Made by a program: the position numbers and the translations under genes. Shown in pieces: positions 46,290 through 62,211 of a stretch of 64,000 nucleotides of DNA. The stretch comes from Oxalobacteraceae bacterium (GTDB taxonomy: Bacteria > Pseudomonadota > Gammaproteobacteria > Burkholderiales > Burkholderiaceae_D): positions 186,001-250,000 of the forward strand of contig JABTBR010000001.1 in assembly GCA_013284265.1 (NCBI GenBank), read 5' to 3'. The first letter of the stretch is position 1. Each line of letters opens with the position of its first letter. The notes under the pieces are model-generated. The model was given only the letters and a program-made list of their open reading frames with translations, did not search any database and was not told the DNA's origin.

Positions 46290-46958
46290 TCAGTCCAGTG
46301 TGGTTTCGCGCAGGCCGGTTTTGCTCAGGATGAGCACTTTGTCCGCCATCGCGGCGGCGGCCAGCGAATGGGTCACCATGACGGCGCAGGCGCCGGTGGC
46401 TTTGATTTCGGTCCGCAGCAGCGTCAGGATGCTGTGCGCGGTGTCGGGATCGAGGTTGCCGGTCGGTTCGTCGGCCAGCACCAGCGCGGGCCGGTGCACC
46501 AGCGCGCGGGCAATGGCCACGCGCTGCATTTCGCCGCCGGACAGCTGGCGCGGGAAGTCCTCGTCGCGCCCGCCCAGGCCCACCGCCGCCAGCATCTGGC
46601 TGGCGCGTTCCTGCGACTGGCCATTCAAGAGCAGCGGCAGCGCCACGTTCTGCAGCAGCGTCAGATGCGGCAGCACGTGAAAGGCCTGGAAGATGAAACC
46701 CATGCGCGTGCGCCGCAGCCGGGTGGCGGCATCGTCGTCCAGGCCGGACATGGCGATGCCATCGACCAGTATCGGCGCGCCCTCGGCGCTGGCGTCCGGG
46801 CTGTCCAGACCCGCGATCAGATTGAGCAGGGTGGATTTACCCACGCCGGAGTCGCCCATGATGGCGACGAACTCGCCCGCCTTGAACCGCCACGACAGAT
46901 TGGCCAGTACCGGACGGCCGGCGGCATAGGATTTGGACAACTGGCGCAGTTCGAGCAT
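46290..46958 (-). CDS. ABC transporter ATP-binding protein (LolD/MacB-type), orphan
   Basis: A 222-residue ATPase: Walker [10 protein letters not shown], signature [16 protein letters not shown], Walker [13 protein letters not shown], switch His VTHS. This is the LolD/MacB/FtsE subclass (short, DEPTGNLD), not the phosphonate/selenate class. No FtsX/LolC-like permease is adjacent. It is 24 bases downstream of the second PhnE-type permease and reads the same way, so it may belong to that operon, giving it two ATPases. Confidence 0.9.
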
Positions 46959-46982
46959 GGGGAATCCGGGAAAGAGTAAGAG

Positions 46983-47813
46983 CTAGCGCGTCAGCGCGCG
47001 GCGCAGCGCGAAGCTGAGCGCGTCGACCACGGCCACCAGCAGCAGCATGCCAAGGATGACGGTGGCGGCGGGACGCATCTGGAACAGCGACAGGTGGTAT
47101 TTGAGCATCTGTCCCAGGCCGCCGGCGCCGACCACGCCCAGAATGGCGGCGGCGCGGATATTGTTCTCCCAGCGGTACAGGGTATAGGACAGCATCTGCG
47201 GCAAGGCTTGCGGCAGCGTGGCATAGAAGAAGGCCGCCATTGGCGCGGCGCCATTGGTGCGCAGGCTTTGCTCGGGCAGCGGCGCGGTGTTTTCCAGCGC
47301 GTCGGCGAACAGGCGGCCCAGCACGCCGCTGGTGTGCGCGGCCAGGGCCAGCGTGCCGGCGAACGGTCCCAGTCCGGCGGCGATCAGCAGGATCGAAGCC
47401 CACACCAGCTCCGGTACCGAGCGCAGGGCATTGAGCAGCACGCGCACCAGCGCGCGCGGGGCGCGCCCGAAGCGTCCGGCAGCGGGCAGTGCCAGCAGCA
47501 TGCCGGCGGCCACCGCCAGCAGGGTGCCGAGGACGGACATCGACAGCGTCTCCAAGGTGGCCCAGCCGGTCTTGACCAGGAAGGGCGTGCTCAATTCCGG
47601 CGGCGCGAAGCCGGCCAGGAACTCGCCCATGCTGCGCAGCGCATCGACGGTGAAGAAGGCCGACCATTGCAGCGGCAGCGTGGCGAAGCTGGCCGCGACG
47701 AGCAGCAGCAACAGCAGCGCCATGATGGGCATGGCCCAGGAGCGCGCGGGCGGCAAGGGCATGGTGGCGCTGGCGCCCGGGTTCATGTTCGTGCTGGAGT
47801 TGGCAGGCTTCAT
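46983..47813 (-). CDS. PhnE-type ABC transporter permease 2 (phosphonate/selenate family)
   Basis: A 276-residue inner-membrane protein with about six helices. ENTAPLPEQSLRTNGAAPMAAFFYATLPQALPQMLSYTLYRWENNIRAAAILGVVGAGGLGQ is the PhnE/PtxC-type permease motif. The ATG overlaps the stop of the first permease by four bases. It forms the channel with the partner permease of the same operon. Confidence 0.88.
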   Translation of the reverse strand: MKPANSSTNMNPGASATMPLPPARSWAMPIMALLLLLLVAASFATLPLQWSAFFTVDALRSMGEFLAGFAPPELSTPFLVKTGWATLETLSMSVLGTLLAVAAGMLLALPAAGRFGRAPRALVRVLLNALRSVPELVWASILLIAAGLGPFAGTLALAAHTSGVLGRLFADALENTAPLPEQSLRTNGAAPMAAFFYATLPQALPQMLSYTLYRWENNIRAAAILGVVGAGGLGQMLKYHLSLFQMRPAATVILGMLLLVAVVDALSFALRRALTR

Positions 47814-48655
47814 CCGAGACGCTTTCGCAATTGACGCGAGACGGCGTCGGCGCCGGCCACCAGCAGCATGAATACCAGCAGCATCGAGGATACCTCGCCG
47901 CCGGACAGCATCTTCATCGATTCATCCATGCGCTGGCCCAGGCCACCTGCGCCCACAAAACCCATCACCACCGAGCCGCGAATCGCGCACTCCCAGCGGT
48001 ACACGGTGTAGGACACCAGCTCCGCCGCCGCTTCCGGCAAGACGCCATATAACAATGCCGTCAGGCGGCTGCTGCCGTTGGCCAGCAGCGCATTGCTGGC
48101 CTGGGCATCGGTCGACTCCAGGATTTCGGCATAGACCTTGCCCAGCATGCCGCAGTAGGTGAGGGCGATGGCCATCACGCCGGCCGCCGGCCCCAGTCCG
48201 ACGATGCGCACCAGCAGCAGCGCCCACACCAGTTCCGGCACACTGCGCAGCAGCACCAGCAGCCAGCGCACCACCTGCCGGACCAGCGCCGTGATGGGGC
48301 GCATGCGGCCCGTACCCAGGCGCGAGATCGACATTTTTTCGGTGATCAGCAGCGTGGCCGGAATCGCGCCAAGCAAGGCGAGTGTCAGGCCGGCGGTGGC
48401 AATGGCGATGGTTTGCCAGGTTTCGCGCAGCAGCATCAGCAGAAATTCGGGCGAGTGCGCGGGCGGCACGAAGCTGGCCAGGAAGCGCCCGGTGGCGTTC
48501 AGGCTTTGCCAGTCGAACAGGATCGATGGCTTGAATTCGCTGGCCACCATCATCGGCCATAGCAGGGCCAGACCCAGCACCGCCAGCGTGACGCGGCCGC
48601 GCCAGGCGGGATCGGGATGCGGGCCTTCGGTCGAAGGAAGGGTATTGGACAGCAT
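47810..48655 (-). CDS. PhnE-type ABC transporter permease 1 (phosphonate/selenate family)
   Basis: A 281-residue permease with helices and the motif ESTDAQASNALLANGSSRLTALLYGVLPEAAAELVSYTVYRWECAIRGSVVMGFVGAGGLGQRMDE. It is paralogous to the following gene. The start 48655 lies five bases beyond the ATPase stop; longer in-frame extension is within that ATPase gene and is discounted. Confidence 0.88.
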   Translation of the reverse strand: MLSNTLPSTEGPHPDPAWRGRVTLAVLGLALLWPMMVASEFKPSILFDWQSLNATGRFLASFVPPAHSPEFLLMLLRETWQTIAIATAGLTLALLGAIPATLLITEKMSISRLGTGRMRPITALVRQVVRWLLVLLRSVPELVWALLLVRIVGLGPAAGVMAIALTYCGMLGKVYAEILESTDAQASNALLANGSSRLTALLYGVLPEAAAELVSYTVYRWECAIRGSVVMGFVGAGGLGQRMDESMKMLSGGEVSSMLLVFMLLVAGADAVSRQLRKRLG

Positions 48656-48660
48656 CGGCG

Positions 48661-49524
48661 TCAGAAGCAGGCGCCGGACAGGGCCAGCTTGTCCATGCCG
48701 GCATCGGGCGGGGATGCACTCGCTTGCGGGCGTTCGCCCTGATACAGCTCGGCCACCATGGCTTCGCTGACCTGGCCGCGCGGCAGGTCGAAGACGATGC
48801 GGCCGTCGCGCAGCGCGACGATGCGCGGGAAATGGCTCAGCGCCAGATCCACCTGGTGCAGGCTGCAGATCAGGGTGGCGCCGCGCGCGGACGCTTCCTG
48901 GTGCAGCGTCTGCAAGGTCAGTTCGGACAGGGCCGGGTCGAGCGCGGACAGTGGTTCGTCCACCAGCAGGGCCTGTGCGTTCGACAGCAGCAGGCGCGCC
49001 AGGCCGCAGCGCTGGCGTTCGCCGCCGGACAGGCGGTCGACGCGGGAATAGAGTTTGTCGCCGAGGTTGAAACGCTGCAGCGCGGCGAAGGCGGCGGCCG
49101 GATCGGCCGGACGCAGCAGCGACAGCAAGGCGCGCCACAGCGACCAGTGCGGCAGGCGTGCGGCCAGCACGGCGGTGACCACGCGCTGGCGCGGCGGCAG
49201 CGGCGGCGTTTGCGGCGCCAGGAACAGGCGCGCACGCAACTGGTGGCGCGCCGCCTGGGCCAGCGACCAGGGTGCGATGCCAAACATCTGGAATAGTCCG
49301 TCGGCGGGGCGGTGCGCGCAGGCCAGCGTGGCCAGCAGCGTGGTCTTGCCCGCGCCCGATGGACCGATGATGGCCAGCTGCTCGCCCTGTGCGATATTCA
49401 GACTGATGCCTTGCAGGGCCGGCGCGGCGCTGCCGCTCAGATGGCGCACCGTCAGGTCCCGCAGAACATAGGTGGGCGCCGCGGGATCGCCCGCGGCGCC
49501 AGGTTTCATGCTATTACCGGACAT
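48661..49524 (-). CDS. PhnC-type ABC transporter ATP-binding protein (phosphonate/selenate family)
   Basis: A 287-residue ATPase: Walker A GPSGAGKTT, signature RLSGGERQRCGLARLL, Walker B ALLVDEPLSALD, switch SLHQVDLALSHFPRIVAL. PhnC-like. It starts three bases after the binding-protein stop. Its Q-loop and helical region are slightly divergent (RLFLAPQTPPLPPRQRVVTAVLAARL), as in the TIGR-type putative selenate systems. Confidence 0.88.
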   Translation of the reverse strand: MSGNSMKPGAAGDPAAPTYVLRDLTVRHLSGSAAPALQGISLNIAQGEQLAIIGPSGAGKTTLLATLACAHRPADGLFQMFGIAPWSLAQAARHQLRARLFLAPQTPPLPPRQRVVTAVLAARLPHWSLWRALLSLLRPADPAAAFAALQRFNLGDKLYSRVDRLSGGERQRCGLARLLLSNAQALLVDEPLSALDPALSELTLQTLHQEASARGATLICSLHQVDLALSHFPRIVALRDGRIVFDLPRGQVSEAMVAELYQGERPQASASPPDAGMDKLALSGACF

Positions 49525-49527
49525 TGA

Positions 49528-50409
49528 TTACTTCAGCAGGCCTGCGTTGTGGGCCGCCGCTTCGATGGCGGTGTAGTTCTCGGCCTTGGTGGGGATGAAT
49601 TTGGAAGCGCGCTGCAAGTCCAGGATCACCTTGTCCTGCGGGTTTTTCGGGTCGAGCGCCAGGAAGGCATCGGTGATCTTTTTCTTCAGGTCGGCGTTCA
49701 TATCGCTGCGCACGCTCCAGTTGTAATCGTAGTAGCCGGGCGTGGTGTAGAACACCCGTACCACGGCCGGATCGACCTTTTTCTCGCCGATCAGTTTTTC
49801 CCACACCGAGATATTCAGTGCGCCGGCATCGACCTTGCCGCCCGCGACGGCGGCCACGGTGGCGTCGTGCGCGCCGGAGAAGGCGATGCGTTTCAGGTCG
49901 GTGTCCGGATTGATCTTGGCGGCCAGCAGGAAGGAGCGCGGCATCAGGTGGCCCGAGGTGGACGATTCGGAACCGAAGCTCAGGGTGCGGCCTTTCAGGT
50001 CGTCGAGCTTGTTGATGTCCTTATTGGTGGTGATGAACACGGAACGGAATTTTTCATCCTCGGCGCGCTGCACCAGCGGGGTGATCTGATTCTTGCTGCG
50101 GTCCTTGGCCTGCACGAAAGTGAAGCCGCCGAACCATACCATTTCGACTTTCTTGTTGATCAGCGCTTCCACCGAGGCCGCGTAATCGGTCACGGGCGTG
50201 AATTCCACCTTCATGCCGGTTTTCTTTTCCAGGTATTCGCCCAGCGGCTTGAATTTGCGCTGCAACTCGGTCGGCGCCTCGTCCGGAATGGCGGACACCC
50301 GCAGTACGCCGGCGTTCTGGGCTTGCGCCGTGGCGGCGCCAAACAACAGGGCGGCGCTGCAGCCGGCAGCGATCAGCGATTGGAAAGTGCGCAGGGCGAT
50401 GGTTTTCAT
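49528..50409 (-). CDS. PhnD-family substrate-binding protein, putative selenate/phosphonate transporter
   Basis: A 293-residue periplasmic protein with signal peptide (ALRTFQSLIAAGCSAALLFGAATAQA). It opens with VLRVSAIPDEAPTELQRKFKPLGEYLEKKTGMKVEFTPVTDYAASVEALINKKVEMVWFGGFTFVQA, matching the PhnD-like family that is annotated as putative selenate-binding protein. No phosphonate catabolic genes are near, but egtDB lies divergent and selD is 10 kb away. This genomic company supports selenium, yet the ligand is inference; phosphonate or phosphite are alternatives. First gene of the transporter operon. Confidence 0.82.
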   Translation of the reverse strand: MKTIALRTFQSLIAAGCSAALLFGAATAQAQNAGVLRVSAIPDEAPTELQRKFKPLGEYLEKKTGMKVEFTPVTDYAASVEALINKKVEMVWFGGFTFVQAKDRSKNQITPLVQRAEDEKFRSVFITTNKDINKLDDLKGRTLSFGSESSTSGHLMPRSFLLAAKINPDTDLKRIAFSGAHDATVAAVAGGKVDAGALNISVWEKLIGEKKVDPAVVRVFYTTPGYYDYNWSVRSDMNADLKKKITDAFLALDPKNPQDKVILDLQRASKFIPTKAENYTAIEAAAHNAGLLK

Positions 50410-50514
50410 GCGGGAAGTAACCTTTTTTGTAAGGAAGGGGTCGAAGGGCGTGACCCGGGAATCGGGTGCGCACCGCTCGCAAGCCGCACGTCCCAACTTT
50501 AATATTCAGCTATC

Positions 50515-50530
50515 ATAACAAAAATGTTAT
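50515..50530. promoter_or_regulatory. inverted repeat between the divergent transporter and egtDB operons
   Basis: ATAACA-AAAA-TGTTAT, six-base arms with four-base spacer, in the 203-base divergent promoter region. It could be the binding site of a shared regulator. Confidence 0.4.
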
Positions 50531-50612
50531 CGGCGGCAGCGACCGGCAGGGCCGGCGTGGGCGCGGCGATGACAATGGATTGTTACCCTCCACACTCAGA
50601 CAGGGCAAACTT

Positions 50613-51626
50613 ATGCAGATGTCCCGCTCCTCGGCGATCCATGTCGTGTCGCCCGAAAGTAGCAGAACCCTCAGCCGTCCCCTGCGCCAGCCTGCCCATG
50701 GCAGCGCCAGCGTCCTGGCCGAAATCTCCGCCGGCCTGCTCGCCAAGGCCGCCCACAGTTCCCCCAAATTCCTCTACGACAGCCTCGGTTCCAAGCTGTT
50801 CGAAGCCATTTGCGAGCTGCCGGAATACTACCCCACCCGTACCGAGGCGGCCATCTTCGCCCGCCACGGCGCGGACATGGCGGCGGCCATCGGCACCGGC
50901 AGCGCGATGATCGACCTGGGCGCGGGCAACTGCGCCAAGGCCGCCAGCCTGTTCCCGCTGCTGCAGCCGGCCCAGTATGTGCCGGTGGATATTTCGCGCG
51001 ACTTTCTGACTGAAGCTGTGGGGCGCCTGCAACAGCGCTTCCCGCACATCGAGATGACGGCGCTGGGGCTGGATTTTTCCAATGGCTTCGACCTGCCCGC
51101 CAGCGTGCGCGCGGCGCGGCGGCTGTTCTTCTATCCCGGTTCATCGATCGGCAATTTTTCGCCGGAACAGGCCACCGCCTTCCTGCGCGGCCTGCGCGCC
51201 AATGCCGGCGTTGACGGCGGCCTGCTGATCGGCGTGGACCTGATCAAGGATTCCACCACGCTCGACGCCGCCTATGACGACGCGCTCGGCGTGACCGGCG
51301 CCTTCAATCTGAATCTGCTGCGCCATCTGAACCATCTGATCGGTGCCGATTTCGACGTGAGCCAATGGCAGCACCGCGCCTTCTTCAACGAGCAGGCCAG
51401 CCGCATCGAGATGTACCTGGAAGCGCGCAGCGGCCTGACCGTGCGCTGGGACGGCGGCGAGCGCTATTTCGCGCGCGGCGAGCGTATCCATACCGAAGAC
51501 AGCTACAAATATACCCAGGCCAGCTTCACTGGCTTGCTCGAGCAGGCCGGCTTCGCCACCACCCGCGTGTGGACCGACGATGCGGGCTGGTTCGCCGTGA
51601 TCCACGCCAAGGCCATCCGCGATTGA
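50613..51626 (+). CDS. egtD: L-histidine N(alpha)-methyltransferase EgtD
   Basis: A 337-residue SAM-dependent enzyme. SPKFLYDSLGSKLFEAICELPEYYPTRTEAAIF, MIDLGAGNCAKAASLF and YVPVDIS are the EgtD/DUF2260-type motifs; FFYPGSSIGNFSPEQA and LLIGVDLIKDSTTLDAAYDDALGVTGAFNLNLLRHLN follow. It trimethylates histidine to hercynine, first step of ergothioneine and selenoneine synthesis. The start at 50613 is preferred over a longer in-frame extension with no ribosome site. It is followed by egtB. Confidence 0.92.
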   Translation: MQMSRSSAIHVVSPESSRTLSRPLRQPAHGSASVLAEISAGLLAKAAHSSPKFLYDSLGSKLFEAICELPEYYPTRTEAAIFARHGADMAAAIGTGSAMIDLGAGNCAKAASLFPLLQPAQYVPVDISRDFLTEAVGRLQQRFPHIEMTALGLDFSNGFDLPASVRAARRLFFYPGSSIGNFSPEQATAFLRGLRANAGVDGGLLIGVDLIKDSTTLDAAYDDALGVTGAFNLNLLRHLNHLIGADFDVSQWQHRAFFNEQASRIEMYLEARSGLTVRWDGGERYFARGERIHTEDSYKYTQASFTGLLEQAGFATTRVWTDDAGWFAVIHAKAIRD

Positions 51627-51633
51627 GGCGCCC

Positions 51634-52884
51634 ATGCAGATGAACGATACCGGCGTGTGGAACGCCCGCTACAGCGCCGTGCGCCAGCGCTCGCTGGCAC
51701 TGGCCGCCACGCTGACGGACGAGGATTGCGGCGCCCAGTCGATGCCCGACGCGAGCCCGATCAAATGGCATCTGGCCCACACCACCTGGTTCTTCGAGAC
51801 CTTTATTCTCGAAAAAATGGAGGCTGATTTTGCGCCTTTCCATCCAGCCTTCCGGGTGCTGTTCAATTCCTATTACAACGGCATCGGCCAGAAGCACCCG
51901 CGTGCGCAGCGCGGCCTGTTGACGCGGCCCGCGATGGCGCAGGTGCGCGCCTACCGCGCCAATGTGGATGAACGCATCGGCCGCCTGATCGGCAGCCCGC
52001 TGGAGGCTGGCGCACGCGAGCAACTGGCGATGCTGGTCACTTTGGGGCTGCAGCACGAACAGCAGCATCAGGAGCTGATGCTGACCGACGTCAAGCATCT
52101 GCTGGGGCAGAGCGCGCTGCTGCCGGCGTATCTGGACGCGCCGCTGGCGCCAGCCGCCGATCTGGGTGACAGCGGCTGGATCGGCTTCGATGGCGGCCTG
52201 ACCGATATCGGCTATGACGGCGACGGTTTTTGCTTCGACAACGAACTGCCGCGCCATCGCCAGTATGTGGCGCCGTTCGCGCTCGCCTCGCGGCTGGTGA
52301 GCAATGGCGAATATCTGGACTTCATCAACGCGGGCGGCTATTTCAATGCCTCGCTGTGGCTGGCCGAGGGCTGGGACTGGGTCTGCAGCCAGAACCTGCG
52401 TTGTCCTATGTACTGGCAGCAGGGCGAGGGCGGCGAATGGCTGGAGTTCACGCTGCATGGCGCCCAGCCGCTGGACCCGAACCGGCCCGCCACGCATCTC
52501 TCCCTGTTCGAAGCGGATGCTTATGCGAATTGGGCCGGCGCCCGTTTGCCGACCGAGGCGGAATGGGAATTCGCGGCGCGGGCCGCGGCGGTGGAATGCG
52601 GCGAGCTGCATCCGGCCGGTGCCGGCGCGCAGGCGGGACTGGTGCAGATGTTTGGCCATTGCTGGCAGTGGACCAGCAGCAGCTACGCGCCGTATCCGGG
52701 ATATCAAACGGCGCCGGGTGCGCTGGGCGAGTACAACGGCAAGTTCATGCTGAACCAGTATGTGTTGCGTGGCTCGTCCTGCGCCACGCCGCCGGGACAT
52801 GCGCGCGCCAGCTACCGCAACTTCTTCCCGGCCGGTGCACGCTGGCAGTTCACCGGCATCCGGCTGGCGCGGCAGATCGCTTGA
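51634..52884 (+). CDS. egtB: ergothioneine biosynthesis protein EgtB
   Basis: A 416-residue non-haem iron sulfoxide synthase. DinB-like N-terminal domain with SPIKWHLAHTTWFFETFILEKME (His49) and LQHEQQHQELMLTD (His141, His145, Glu147), giving the three-histidine iron site. FGE-sulfatase-like domain from about residue 190 (LASRLVSNGEYLDFINAGGYF, ARLPTEAEWEFAAR, GHCWQWTSSSYAPYPGY, VLRGSSCATPPGHARASYRNFFPAGARWQFTGIRLAR). It couples hercynine to a thiol with O2. Starts eight bases after egtD. Confidence 0.93.
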   Translation: MQMNDTGVWNARYSAVRQRSLALAATLTDEDCGAQSMPDASPIKWHLAHTTWFFETFILEKMEADFAPFHPAFRVLFNSYYNGIGQKHPRAQRGLLTRPAMAQVRAYRANVDERIGRLIGSPLEAGAREQLAMLVTLGLQHEQQHQELMLTDVKHLLGQSALLPAYLDAPLAPAADLGDSGWIGFDGGLTDIGYDGDGFCFDNELPRHRQYVAPFALASRLVSNGEYLDFINAGGYFNASLWLAEGWDWVCSQNLRCPMYWQQGEGGEWLEFTLHGAQPLDPNRPATHLSLFEADAYANWAGARLPTEAEWEFAARAAAVECGELHPAGAGAQAGLVQMFGHCWQWTSSSYAPYPGYQTAPGALGEYNGKFMLNQYVLRGSSCATPPGHARASYRNFFPAGARWQFTGIRLARQIA

Positions 52885-59868: not shown

Positions 59869-59934
59869 GACTGGCGCTATGCGTCGACCTGCACCCGGGC
59901 CGACTGGCGCTATGCGTCGACCTGCACCCGGGCC
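59869..59934. repeat. 33-base perfect tandem duplication at the 3' end of selD
   Basis: The unit from GACTGGCGCTATGCGTC to ...CACCCGGGCC occurs twice back to back (59869-59901 and 59902-59934). The right copy contains the last codons and stop of selD; the left copy lies just outside the gene. It looks like recent local slippage or a duplication. Confidence 0.92.
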
Positions 59935-60959
59935 GGACCGTCGGCCATGCGGCCGATGACGGCGGCGTCGGCGAAGCCTTCGCGCGCGAACAGGGCCAGC
60001 ACCGCGTCCGCGCTGGCGGCATCGCAGGAAACCAGCAGGCCGCCCGAGGTTTGCGGATCGGTCAGCAGGGTGTGCTGGGCCGGGCTGATGGCCGGGGCCA
60101 GCGTCACGTCCTTGCCGTAGGCATCCCAGTTGCGGCCGGAGGCGCCGGTGAAGTAGCCGTCGTGGGCCAGTTGTTCGACGCCGGGGAGCAGGGGAATGGC
60201 CGCCATGTCCAGCTGCGCCGTCAGCTTCGAGCCGCGCGCGATTTCCAGCAGGTGGCCCAGCAGGCCGAAACCGGTGACGTCGGTCAGCGCGTGGACCCCA
60301 TCGAGTTCCGACAGGGCCTTGCCCGGCTTGTTCAATTTGGTGGTGCTGGCGATCATGGCGGCATAGCCTTCCGGCCCCAGCACGTCCTTTTTCAGCGCGG
60401 CCGACAGCACGCCCACGCCCAGCGGTTTGCCCAGTATCAGCACGTCGCCGGCGCGCGCGTCGGCATTGCGCTTGACCCGGGACGGATGCACCAGGCCCAG
60501 CACCACCAGGCCGTAGATCGGTTCGACCGAATCGATGGTGTGGCCGCCGGCGATCGGGATGCCGGCCTCGGCGCAGATCGATTCGCCGCCGCGGATGATC
60601 TGGCCTATGGTCTCGAGCGGCAACTGATTGATCGGCATGCCGACCAGGGCCAGCGCCATGATGGGCGTGCCGCCCATTGCATACACGTCGGAGATGGCGT
60701 TGGTGGCGGCGATGCGGCCGAAGTCGAAGGGATCGTCGACGATGGGCATGAAGAAATCGGTGGTGGCGATCAGTGCCTGCTCGTCGTTGAGGCGGTAGAC
60801 GGCGGCGTCGTCGGCCGTCTCGATGCCGACCATCAGTTCCTTCGGCACCGGGAAGCCGGAGGAGTTCTTCAGGATCTCGGACAGCACGCCGGGGGCGATC
60901 TTGCAGCCGCAGCCGCCGCCGTGGGAAAAGGAAGTCAGTTTGACGGGGGCTGTGCTCAT
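59910..60959 (-). CDS. selD: selenide, water dikinase (SelD; SenC-like possible)
   Basis: A 349-residue enzyme that makes selenophosphate from selenide and ATP. TSFSHGGGCGCKIAPGVL contains the catalytic Cys17 and Lys20 (Cys here, not selenocysteine), followed by TTDFFMPIVDDPFDFGRIAATNAISDVYAMGGTPIMALALVGMP, ADARAGDVLILGKPLGVGVLSAALK and the C-terminal GLVSAD-like TSGGLLVSCDA. Divergent from the SenA-like gene with 52 bases between. It could serve selU/tRNA, selA or selenoneine (SenC). AAGGA precedes ATG 60959. Confidence 0.92.
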   Translation of the reverse strand: MSTAPVKLTSFSHGGGCGCKIAPGVLSEILKNSSGFPVPKELMVGIETADDAAVYRLNDEQALIATTDFFMPIVDDPFDFGRIAATNAISDVYAMGGTPIMALALVGMPINQLPLETIGQIIRGGESICAEAGIPIAGGHTIDSVEPIYGLVVLGLVHPSRVKRNADARAGDVLILGKPLGVGVLSAALKKDVLGPEGYAAMIASTTKLNKPGKALSELDGVHALTDVTGFGLLGHLLEIARGSKLTAQLDMAAIPLLPGVEQLAHDGYFTGASGRNWDAYGKDVTLAPAISPAQHTLLTDPQTSGGLLVSCDAASADAVLALFAREGFADAAVIGRMADGPARVQVDA

Positions 60960-61011
60960 GAGATGATCCTTGGTGATGGTAGGGGCGCGGGAAACTGGCT
61001 ACAATCATCGC

Positions 61012-62211
61012 ATGAGCCTACTCCCCGCTTCGTTCCGCCAGGCCCGGCCCATGCAATTGGCCGAAGCCTTCCAGCAATCGCGCGATTATACGCTGGCGCT
61101 GTTCGACTGCTATGCCGCCGCCGGCCTGGATGTGTCCGCGCGCGTGCCGCAGCTATTGACGCTGAACCCGCCGCTGTGGGAACTGGGCCGTATCGCCTGG
61201 TTCGCCGAATGGTTTGTGCTGCGCGAGGCGCCCACCAGCCACCCGGCGGACGCGCTCTACAACTCCTTGATCACCCAGGGCGATGACTGGTTCGACGCCA
61301 CCGTGGCGCACCGGGCCCGCTGGACGCTGGAGCTGCCCAGCACCGGCGCGCTGAAAACCTATTGCCACGAAGTGCTGGACCGGGTGCTCGACCGTCTGAC
61401 CCGCACCCCGAATGAAGATCACTACCTGTATCCGTTCCGGCTGGCGCTGGCCCATGAGGACATGCGTGCCGAGGCCATGCTGGCCGGATTGCAGACGCTG
61501 GGCCTGCCGGTGCCGCCGCAACTGACCCAGGACAATCAGCCCTTGCTGGCGCCGTCGGCGATCGGTTTTCCGGGCGGGCGCCTGCAACTGGGCAGTGCGC
61601 CCGACACCGGCTTCGCCTTCGATAATGAATATCTGGCGCACGGCTGCCTGGTGGCGCCGTTCAGCATCGACAGTACCCTGGTGACCAACGCCCAGTATGC
61701 CGATTTCGTCGGCGATGGCGGTTACGACAACCGCCAGTTCTGGAGCGCCGCCGGCAGCGACTGGATGATGCGCCAGGAACGCTCGGCGCCACGCTACTGG
61801 CAGCGCGATGGCGGCGAATGGCGCACCATGCGCTTCGGCCAGCTGTGCTCCCTGGGCGCGGCCGAACCGGTACGCCATATTAATCTGTACGAGGCCCAGG
61901 CTTATTGCGCCTGGGCCGGGCGCCGCCTGCCCACCGAAACGGAATGGGAATACGCTGCGCTGTCGGGCCATCCGGGCTTCCGCTGGGGCCATCTGTGGGA
62001 GTGGACCGCCTCGCCTTTCGATGCCTATCCGGGCTTTGTGGCGCAGGGCGACCTGGCCTATTCGGCGCCGCACTTCCTCACCCACCAGGTGCTGCGCGGC
62101 GCCTCCTTCGCCACGCCCTCGCGTTTTGGCTCGGCCAAATTCCGCCAGTTCCTGTTGCCCGAGCGCGACGAGCTGTTCGCCGGCCTGCGCACCTGCGCCT
62201 GGCAGCGCTAG
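61012..62211 (+). CDS. EgtB homologue of the SenA (selenoneine synthase) type, with altered iron ligands
   Basis: A 399-residue protein: DinB-like N-terminal domain and FGE-sulfatase-like C-terminal domain ([78 protein letters not shown]). The opening [20 protein letters not shown] is the SenA-type signature rather than WHLAHTTW of EgtB. At the iron-ligand positions, His of the WELGH motif is Arg60 (CGT) and the second His of HEDMH is Arg152 (CGT); only His148 and Glu154 remain. A divergent selD is adjacent. SenB was not found in the window. Start: no ribosome site; TACAAT at 61000-61005 lies 7 bases before ATG, so a leaderless mRNA is possible. Confidence 0.8.

Follow-up and report, generated by a model that had tools for sequence, protein, structure and literature searches.

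A SenA-like protein lacking iron-ligand histidines in an Oxalobacteraceae genome as a candidate for a recurrent pseudoenzyme state

In pseudoenzymes in general, the fold is conserved and purifying selection persists, while the catalytic residues are gone. The protein described here is closest to three known systems, namely SenA (NCBIfam NF041186; PDB 8k5i, 8k5j, and 8ryz, from Variovorax paradoxus), the ergothioneine sulfoxide synthase EgtB (TIGR03440; PDB 4x8b), and the ovoselenol selenoxide synthase OvsA (PDB 8u41 and 8ux5), the last being named a selenoxide synthase in its PDB titles. According to the accessible part of PMC13426267, the iron ligands of EgtB are H51, H134, and H138, and the accessible parts of PMC10903977 and PMC13426267 describe Tyr377 of EgtB as essential for the native chemistry, C-S bond formation. 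In an EgtB-derived fluorinase, according to the same parts of these two papers, variants mutated at H51 or H134 contained less iron and no longer carried out fluorination or hydroxylation. Additionally, the title of PDB entry 8ux5 presents OvsA M401Y/Q430N/A431F as a hercynine-binding variant with selenoneine-biosynthetic activity.

The window analyzed in this study is a stretch of 64,000 nucleotides from the genome of an Oxalobacteraceae bacterium. It contains a senA-like gene whose reading frame starts with ATG at 61012, is free of internal stops, and closes with a stop codon ending at 62211. Residues were compared in a final alignment of 141 rows after duplicate removal, comprising 58 rows with a broken ligand triad, 78 rows with the intact His-His-His (HHH) triad, and five rows of a group designated O; the intact set was defined by HHH, so its triad is not itself a finding. 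The features of the window are as follows.

50466..51626, + strand: egtD-like ORF
51634..52884, + strand: egtB, with intact His triad and Asn (control paralogue)
59910..60959, - strand: selD (selenide, water dikinase), divergent neighbour
60960..61011, no strand: divergent spacer of 52 bp between selD and the senA-like gene
61012..62211, + strand: senA-like gene, 399 aa, with a helical N-terminal half and an FGE-like C-terminal half
61189..61191, + strand: codon 60, CGT, Arg at an iron-ligand His position (EgtB H51), by alignment
61297..61299, + strand: codon 96, Ala, with Ser in 78/78 intact-triad rows, by alignment
61453..61455, + strand: codon 148, CAT, His, the sole ligand left (EgtB H134), by alignment
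61465..61467, + strand: codon 152, CGT, Arg at an iron-ligand His position (EgtB H138), by alignment
62050..62052, + strand: codon 347, Asp, with Tyr in intact-triad rows (EgtB Tyr377), by alignment and the accessible parts of PMC10903977 and PMC13426267
62146..62148, + strand: codon 379, Gln, with Asn in intact-triad rows (OvsA Q430), by alignment

The window protein scored 470.4 bits against the NCBIfam SenA model (cut-off 420) and 270 bits against the EgtB model, under its cut-off of 360, and its best matches among PDB sequences were the two V. paradoxus SenA sequences. An AlphaFold2 model, computed from an input alignment of 41 sequences including the window protein, reached a pLDDT of 85.7 and a pTM of 0.85, and superposed on SenA 8k5j with Z 50.0 and an rmsd of 1.8 Å over 385 aligned residues. 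These results predict that the scaffold is intact, and the likeness to SenA extends over the full-length sequence, the predicted fold, the length, and the two-domain plan. EgtB has the same fold (Z 41) and homologous sites, but the window protein falls below the EgtB cut-off, and the window has an additional gene, at 51634-52884, for an intact EgtB. OvsA also shares the fold (Z 40) and carries Gln430 at the position of Gln379; however, its identity to the window protein is about 35%, and it has Tyr where the window protein has Asp347.

An earlier sequence-only reading had proposed that Arg60 and Arg152 replace ligand histidines, each through a codon one base away from the His codon CAT, while His148 and Glu154 remain. 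The codons and the alignment bear this out, including the presence of Glu154. That reading had also allowed for a shifted alignment of the DinB region, and none was seen, as the motifs WELG[R] and HEDM[R]AEA aligned without gaps to WELGH and HEAMH in the V. paradoxus SenA sequences (PDB 8k5i/8ryz) as well as to the corresponding stretches of EgtB 4x8b. Beyond what had been noted, the residue-347 column holds Tyr in 77 of the 78 intact-triad rows (the remainder being a gap), and the residue-379 column holds Asn in 76 of them (the remainder being gaps). Residue 379 lies opposite the hercynine-site Asn of EgtB, which we take to be Asn414. On the alignment, the losses in the window protein thus go beyond two iron ligands, since the equivalents of Tyr377 and Asn414 are gone as well. 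A sequencing, assembly, or alignment artefact might be suspected from two codons that are each a single base from CAT, but it can be practically dismissed, because relatives in other records show comparable changes, down to the very same Arg-His-Arg set in one case, further consistent changes occur at positions 96, 347, and 379, and no match to senB above the cut-off was found genome-wide.

In the window genome, which is listed as 100% complete, the best match to the senB model (TIGR04348) scored 45 bits (cut-off 300). Seventy-four genomes of the genus were compared, for which named records of the same loci belong to Duganella, Rugamonas, Pseudoduganella, and Massilia. SenA was found in 69 of them and was absent from G041, G042, G048, G059, and G070; therefore, the gene can be lost. 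senB exceeded the cut-off in 44 of the 74 genomes, and SenA had the HHH triad in every one of these 44. Among the 25 genomes with SenA and no detected senB, 20 had a broken triad, in ten residue combinations. A second species, L059 (Pseudoduganella namucuonensis in the named record L112), has the Arg-His-Arg set as well. Of the scenario by which the sequence-only reading would be refuted, relatives with the same Arg residues that are active through another ligand set, the comparison bears out the shared residues only, and the sets differ by lineage.

The remaining five of the 25 genomes constitute group O (L060, L062, L064, L068, and L069), in which the three His are kept, Asp or Glu occupies the position of the catalytic Tyr, and Leu, Tyr, or Phe that of the hercynine Asn; one genome of this group, G055, is only 60% complete. 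The proteins of group O might be iron enzymes that act on a new substrate. In one senB-bearing genome (G028), the SenA match (L073) falls into two overlapping pieces near the C-terminus, a possible frameshift. The cut-off of NF041186 accepts all 25 SenA proteins from senB-less genomes of the genus (at least 446 bits) as 'selenoneine synthase'.

The paralogous EgtB served as a control. Each of the 74 genomes contained a match scoring 373-403 bits, which is where the window's EgtB falls, and EgtB kept His-His-His-Asn in 21 of the 21 genomes read, the window's among them. The egtD-like ORF, so named presumptively from its N-terminal motif, and egtB are located 8-11 kb upstream of the senA-like gene. 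ORFs read by eye as a phosphonate/phosphite ABC transporter (ATPases, permeases, and a binding protein) are present at 46290-50496 on the minus strand.

The window locus adjoins selD, as do the loci of senB-bearing relatives. In all 14 senB-bearing loci of the genus with enough flank, selD and the divergent senA are separated by senB, and in all 25 senB-less loci selD faces senA without an intervening senB. A selU/mnmH-type gene is also present elsewhere in the window genome, and because such a gene occurs in 73 of the 74 genomes, selD has another use in this genus. In summary, the window protein departs from SenA at two of the three iron-ligand positions, at the catalytic Tyr, and at the hercynine Asn, and no senB was found in its genome; for these reasons, it should not make selenoneine.

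The wider family showed the same association. In a sample of 392 genomes, SenA (E <= 1e-122) was found in 197 and senB (E <= 1e-40) in 146, with 63 genomes having SenA and no senB; the triad was broken in 30 of the 36 SenA proteins read from these 63. Loci sampled from other genera added the sets HYC, HHQ, HHR, HCQ, HHY, and YHR, along with further examples of HYR and QHR, and broken triads were found in 58 distinct rows from several lineages. Among 134 rows, a count that leaves out seven second copies, 76 were HHH with senB, 51 broken without senB, seven HHH without senB, and none broken with senB. The senB status was coded by hand, genome-wide for rows with genome handles (G401 as senB-bearing although its two pieces score under the cut-off) and within about 6 kb on either side for named records. 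From 165 named-record loci, 80 were kept and scored; these were HHH wherever senB was within reach, and broken or of group O wherever it was absent. Exceptions are L173 (G378) and L180 (G384, 83% complete), which are HHH of a divergent type with no senB found in the genome; both are in the final alignment together with the other g33 rows, L171 and L172, all of them HHH.

Alternatively, the protein could be an iron enzyme that retains part of its activity with fewer ligands, namely two His joined by water or a different side chain. This would be compatible with those broken types that lose the H138 equivalent only (HHC, HHR, HHQ, and HHY), and the accessible part of PMC13426267 reports that one evolved EgtB remained active to some extent as its H138A/D/E variants. 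However, the window protein retains one His, has Asp for the catalytic Tyr, and lacks the equivalent of H51, for which the same part of that paper reports that D, E, and A mutants gave no fluorination or hydroxylation product. We therefore consider partial activity very improbable for the window protein.

In Janthinobacterium, 17 loci (L136-L162) encode SenA with Cys at position 152 and have no senB or selD within roughly 6 kb, although selD is present in 39 of 40 Janthinobacterium genomes. The altered senA starts 24-81 nt (232 nt in one locus) beyond the final sense codon of an ORF resembling phoR. PstB-, PhoB-, and PhoR-like ORFs, named by eye as a pst-pho run, were present in 17 of 17 loci and a PhoU-like ORF in 16. 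The arrangement hints at phosphate-linked expression in Janthinobacterium, but not in the window's genus.

Eight genomes of a single genus (g24) combine senB, an HHH SenA (read in all eight), and a broken SenA copy: G184 (L165/L186), G283 (L164/L187), G267 (L166/L188), G257 (L229/L189), G196 (L230/L190), G227 (L232/L194), G237 (L231/L195), and G130 (L234/L235). The HHH copy adjoins senB in six of them and is apart from it in G257 and G196. Seven of the eight broken copies are among the 58 rows, with the eighth, L235 (HYC), outside them. In these genomes, a broken SenA is thus kept even beside an intact one. The broken copy L195 is near ORFs read by eye as leuA, egtB, and egtD.

To count origins, a tree of the genus was built with the motif columns left out, and it required three changes between HHH and broken states. 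A single clade was rejected both for the 20 broken rows (AU p 0.003) and for all 25 senB-less rows (AU p 0.009), whereas a single origin of the 12-row B group alone was not (AU p 0.40); the groups were named after the tree had been seen, so these p-values are generous. The larger tree (138 rows remaining from 187 after duplicate removal in its first version) gave nine changes, four of them forced by starred branches, and eight changes when more columns were dropped. Three independent contrasts on supported branches placed the broken side without senB in nearly all pairings, with a sign-test p of 0.25, three contrasts being too few to reach significance in this test. The trees are unrooted and by themselves cannot separate ligand loss from gain; ligand loss is the more economical interpretation, given that EgtB carries the intact set too. 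By these sequence comparisons, the broken state is estimated to have arisen more than once, and a missing senB, changes at catalytic residues, a preserved scaffold, and an uninterrupted frame are found together in separate lineages. The placement of the window gene varied, and with it whether its loss would be shared with a seven-row sister group: it joined that group in the genus tree (support 91) and was apart from it in two larger trees (100/99 and AU p 0.27 in one of them). The neighbouring selD clusters the window with species that carry senB (SH-aLRT 93, not starred).

Change in the broken rows appears to be concentrated on the catalytic pocket. In columns conserved at 95% among the HHH rows, the broken rows deviated on average by 0.27 at eight non-ligand active-site columns and by 0.05 elsewhere (permutation p 0.002); at a 99% threshold, which leaves just three non-ligand columns, the values were 17% and 7% (p 0.14). 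The eight columns were picked after the alignment had been seen, from the accessible part of PMC13426267 plus two further positions. Of the 58 broken rows, 57 have lost Ser96, which is invariant in the 78 HHH rows, and so have all five rows of group O.

A neofunctionalised enzyme, with the iron pocket rebuilt to work metal-free or with another metal, perhaps through Glu149, Asp150, and Glu154 or the FGE-like half, might account for some of these patterns. Asp150, Glu154, Trp56, Trp63, His289, and Cys299 are kept in 58 of 58 broken rows and Glu149 in 57, certain replacements occur repeatedly (45 of 58 rows have Ala for Ser96, and at position 152 His has given way to Arg in 26 rows and Cys in 21), and Gln379 of the window protein equals the wild-type Gln430 of OvsA. 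Nevertheless, the retained residues are about equally conserved in HHH rows and may be structural, and the replacements at positions 60, 148, 152, 158, and 379 vary by lineage and form no single new set. We regard neofunctionalisation as unlikely, though the strongest of the alternatives. The sequence-only reading had suggested a neofunctionalised clade, and it is the single clade that fails, given its rejection for the 20 genus rows.

Selection was examined by pairwise dN/dS (NG86) in close pairs (>86% identity, dS 0.08-0.7). The 98 pairs of broken rows had a median of 0.109, compared with 0.123 for the 85 HHH pairs. Janthinobacterium contributed 80 of the 98 broken pairs (median 0.113), and the other 18 had a median of 0.107 (range 0.057-0.181). 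The pairs are non-independent, many of the Janthinobacterium pairs share branches, and filtering on identity shifts the values of every set downwards in the same way. These values suggest that the broken relatives as a group have been kept by purifying selection. The window protein has no close relative in the sample; its dN/dS against six relatives was 0.22-0.35 and its end branch is long (0.26-0.29), so that recent relaxation on the window branch is possible.

The gene could instead be a slowly decaying relic of senB loss with no present function, as the catalytic residues are altered in most senB-less rows read, five genomes of the genus have no SenA, and the window end branch is long. Against this, the close-pair dN/dS of broken rows is at most 0.18, inside the HHH range, and no internal stops occur in the SenA matches listed for the genus or in the sampled loci of other genera. 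The window gene is likewise stop-free, unlike neutral simulations from L042, in which 0.1 substitutions per site gave a mean of 3.8 stops and left 1.25% of 400 runs stop-free, 0.3 gave 9.1 stops, and no run of 400 was stop-free at 0.2 or more. A relic is thus improbable, and the early decay product offered by the sequence-only reading fits poorly with 58 broken homologues, a dN/dS of about 0.11, and stop-free matches.

Among the three options of that reading, a pseudoenzyme is the best supported. Taken together, the most likely product of the window gene is a SenA-fold protein without catalytic activity that selection has maintained since selenoneine synthesis disappeared, with less certainty for the window branch itself. 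More specifically, we favor, with moderate confidence, an iron-free SenA pseudoenzyme whose scaffold was kept for a second, non-catalytic role after the loss of senB. Under this explanation, loss of senB would leave the enzyme without its selenosugar substrate, selection on catalysis would end, and the folded scaffold would be retained to bind a partner, either another protein or a small molecule. As a weak first guess, this partner may be the ergothioneine branch (EgtB or hercynine), ranked first with low confidence because the window has an egtD-like ORF and egtB, and matches in the EgtB range occur in every genome of the genus. No conserved neighbour naming a function was found across the loci compared from the different lineages, as the neighbour is selD in the window's genus, while Janthinobacterium has a phoR-like gene there and another genus has leuA with egt-like genes. 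More tentatively, and with slightly less than even confidence, the second function may predate the loss of selenoneine, so that the pocket would drift and the scaffold be kept whenever senB is lost or an active copy exists elsewhere, and the state would have evolved several times in one family.

No description of a senB-less SenA, or of a pseudoenzyme of the SenA/EgtB/OvoA family, was found in a literature search of partial coverage, which took in the accessible parts of PMC10891094 and PMC10702425 and had the original SenA report outside it. The fold and the family are known, and the repeated SenA pseudoenzyme state is apparently undescribed in the literature searched.

These results have implications for annotation and for the biology of the family. 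The NCBIfam name 'selenoneine synthase' overstates the window protein, and automatic annotation is likely wrong for many SenA proteins from senB-less genomes of the genus; selenoneine synthesis read from senA alone would be overcalled, as 63 of the 197 SenA-bearing genomes in the family sample lack detected senB. If one enzyme has given rise to a pseudoenzyme state repeatedly, nature would in effect have run replicates of an experiment on the second functions that metabolic enzymes may hide.
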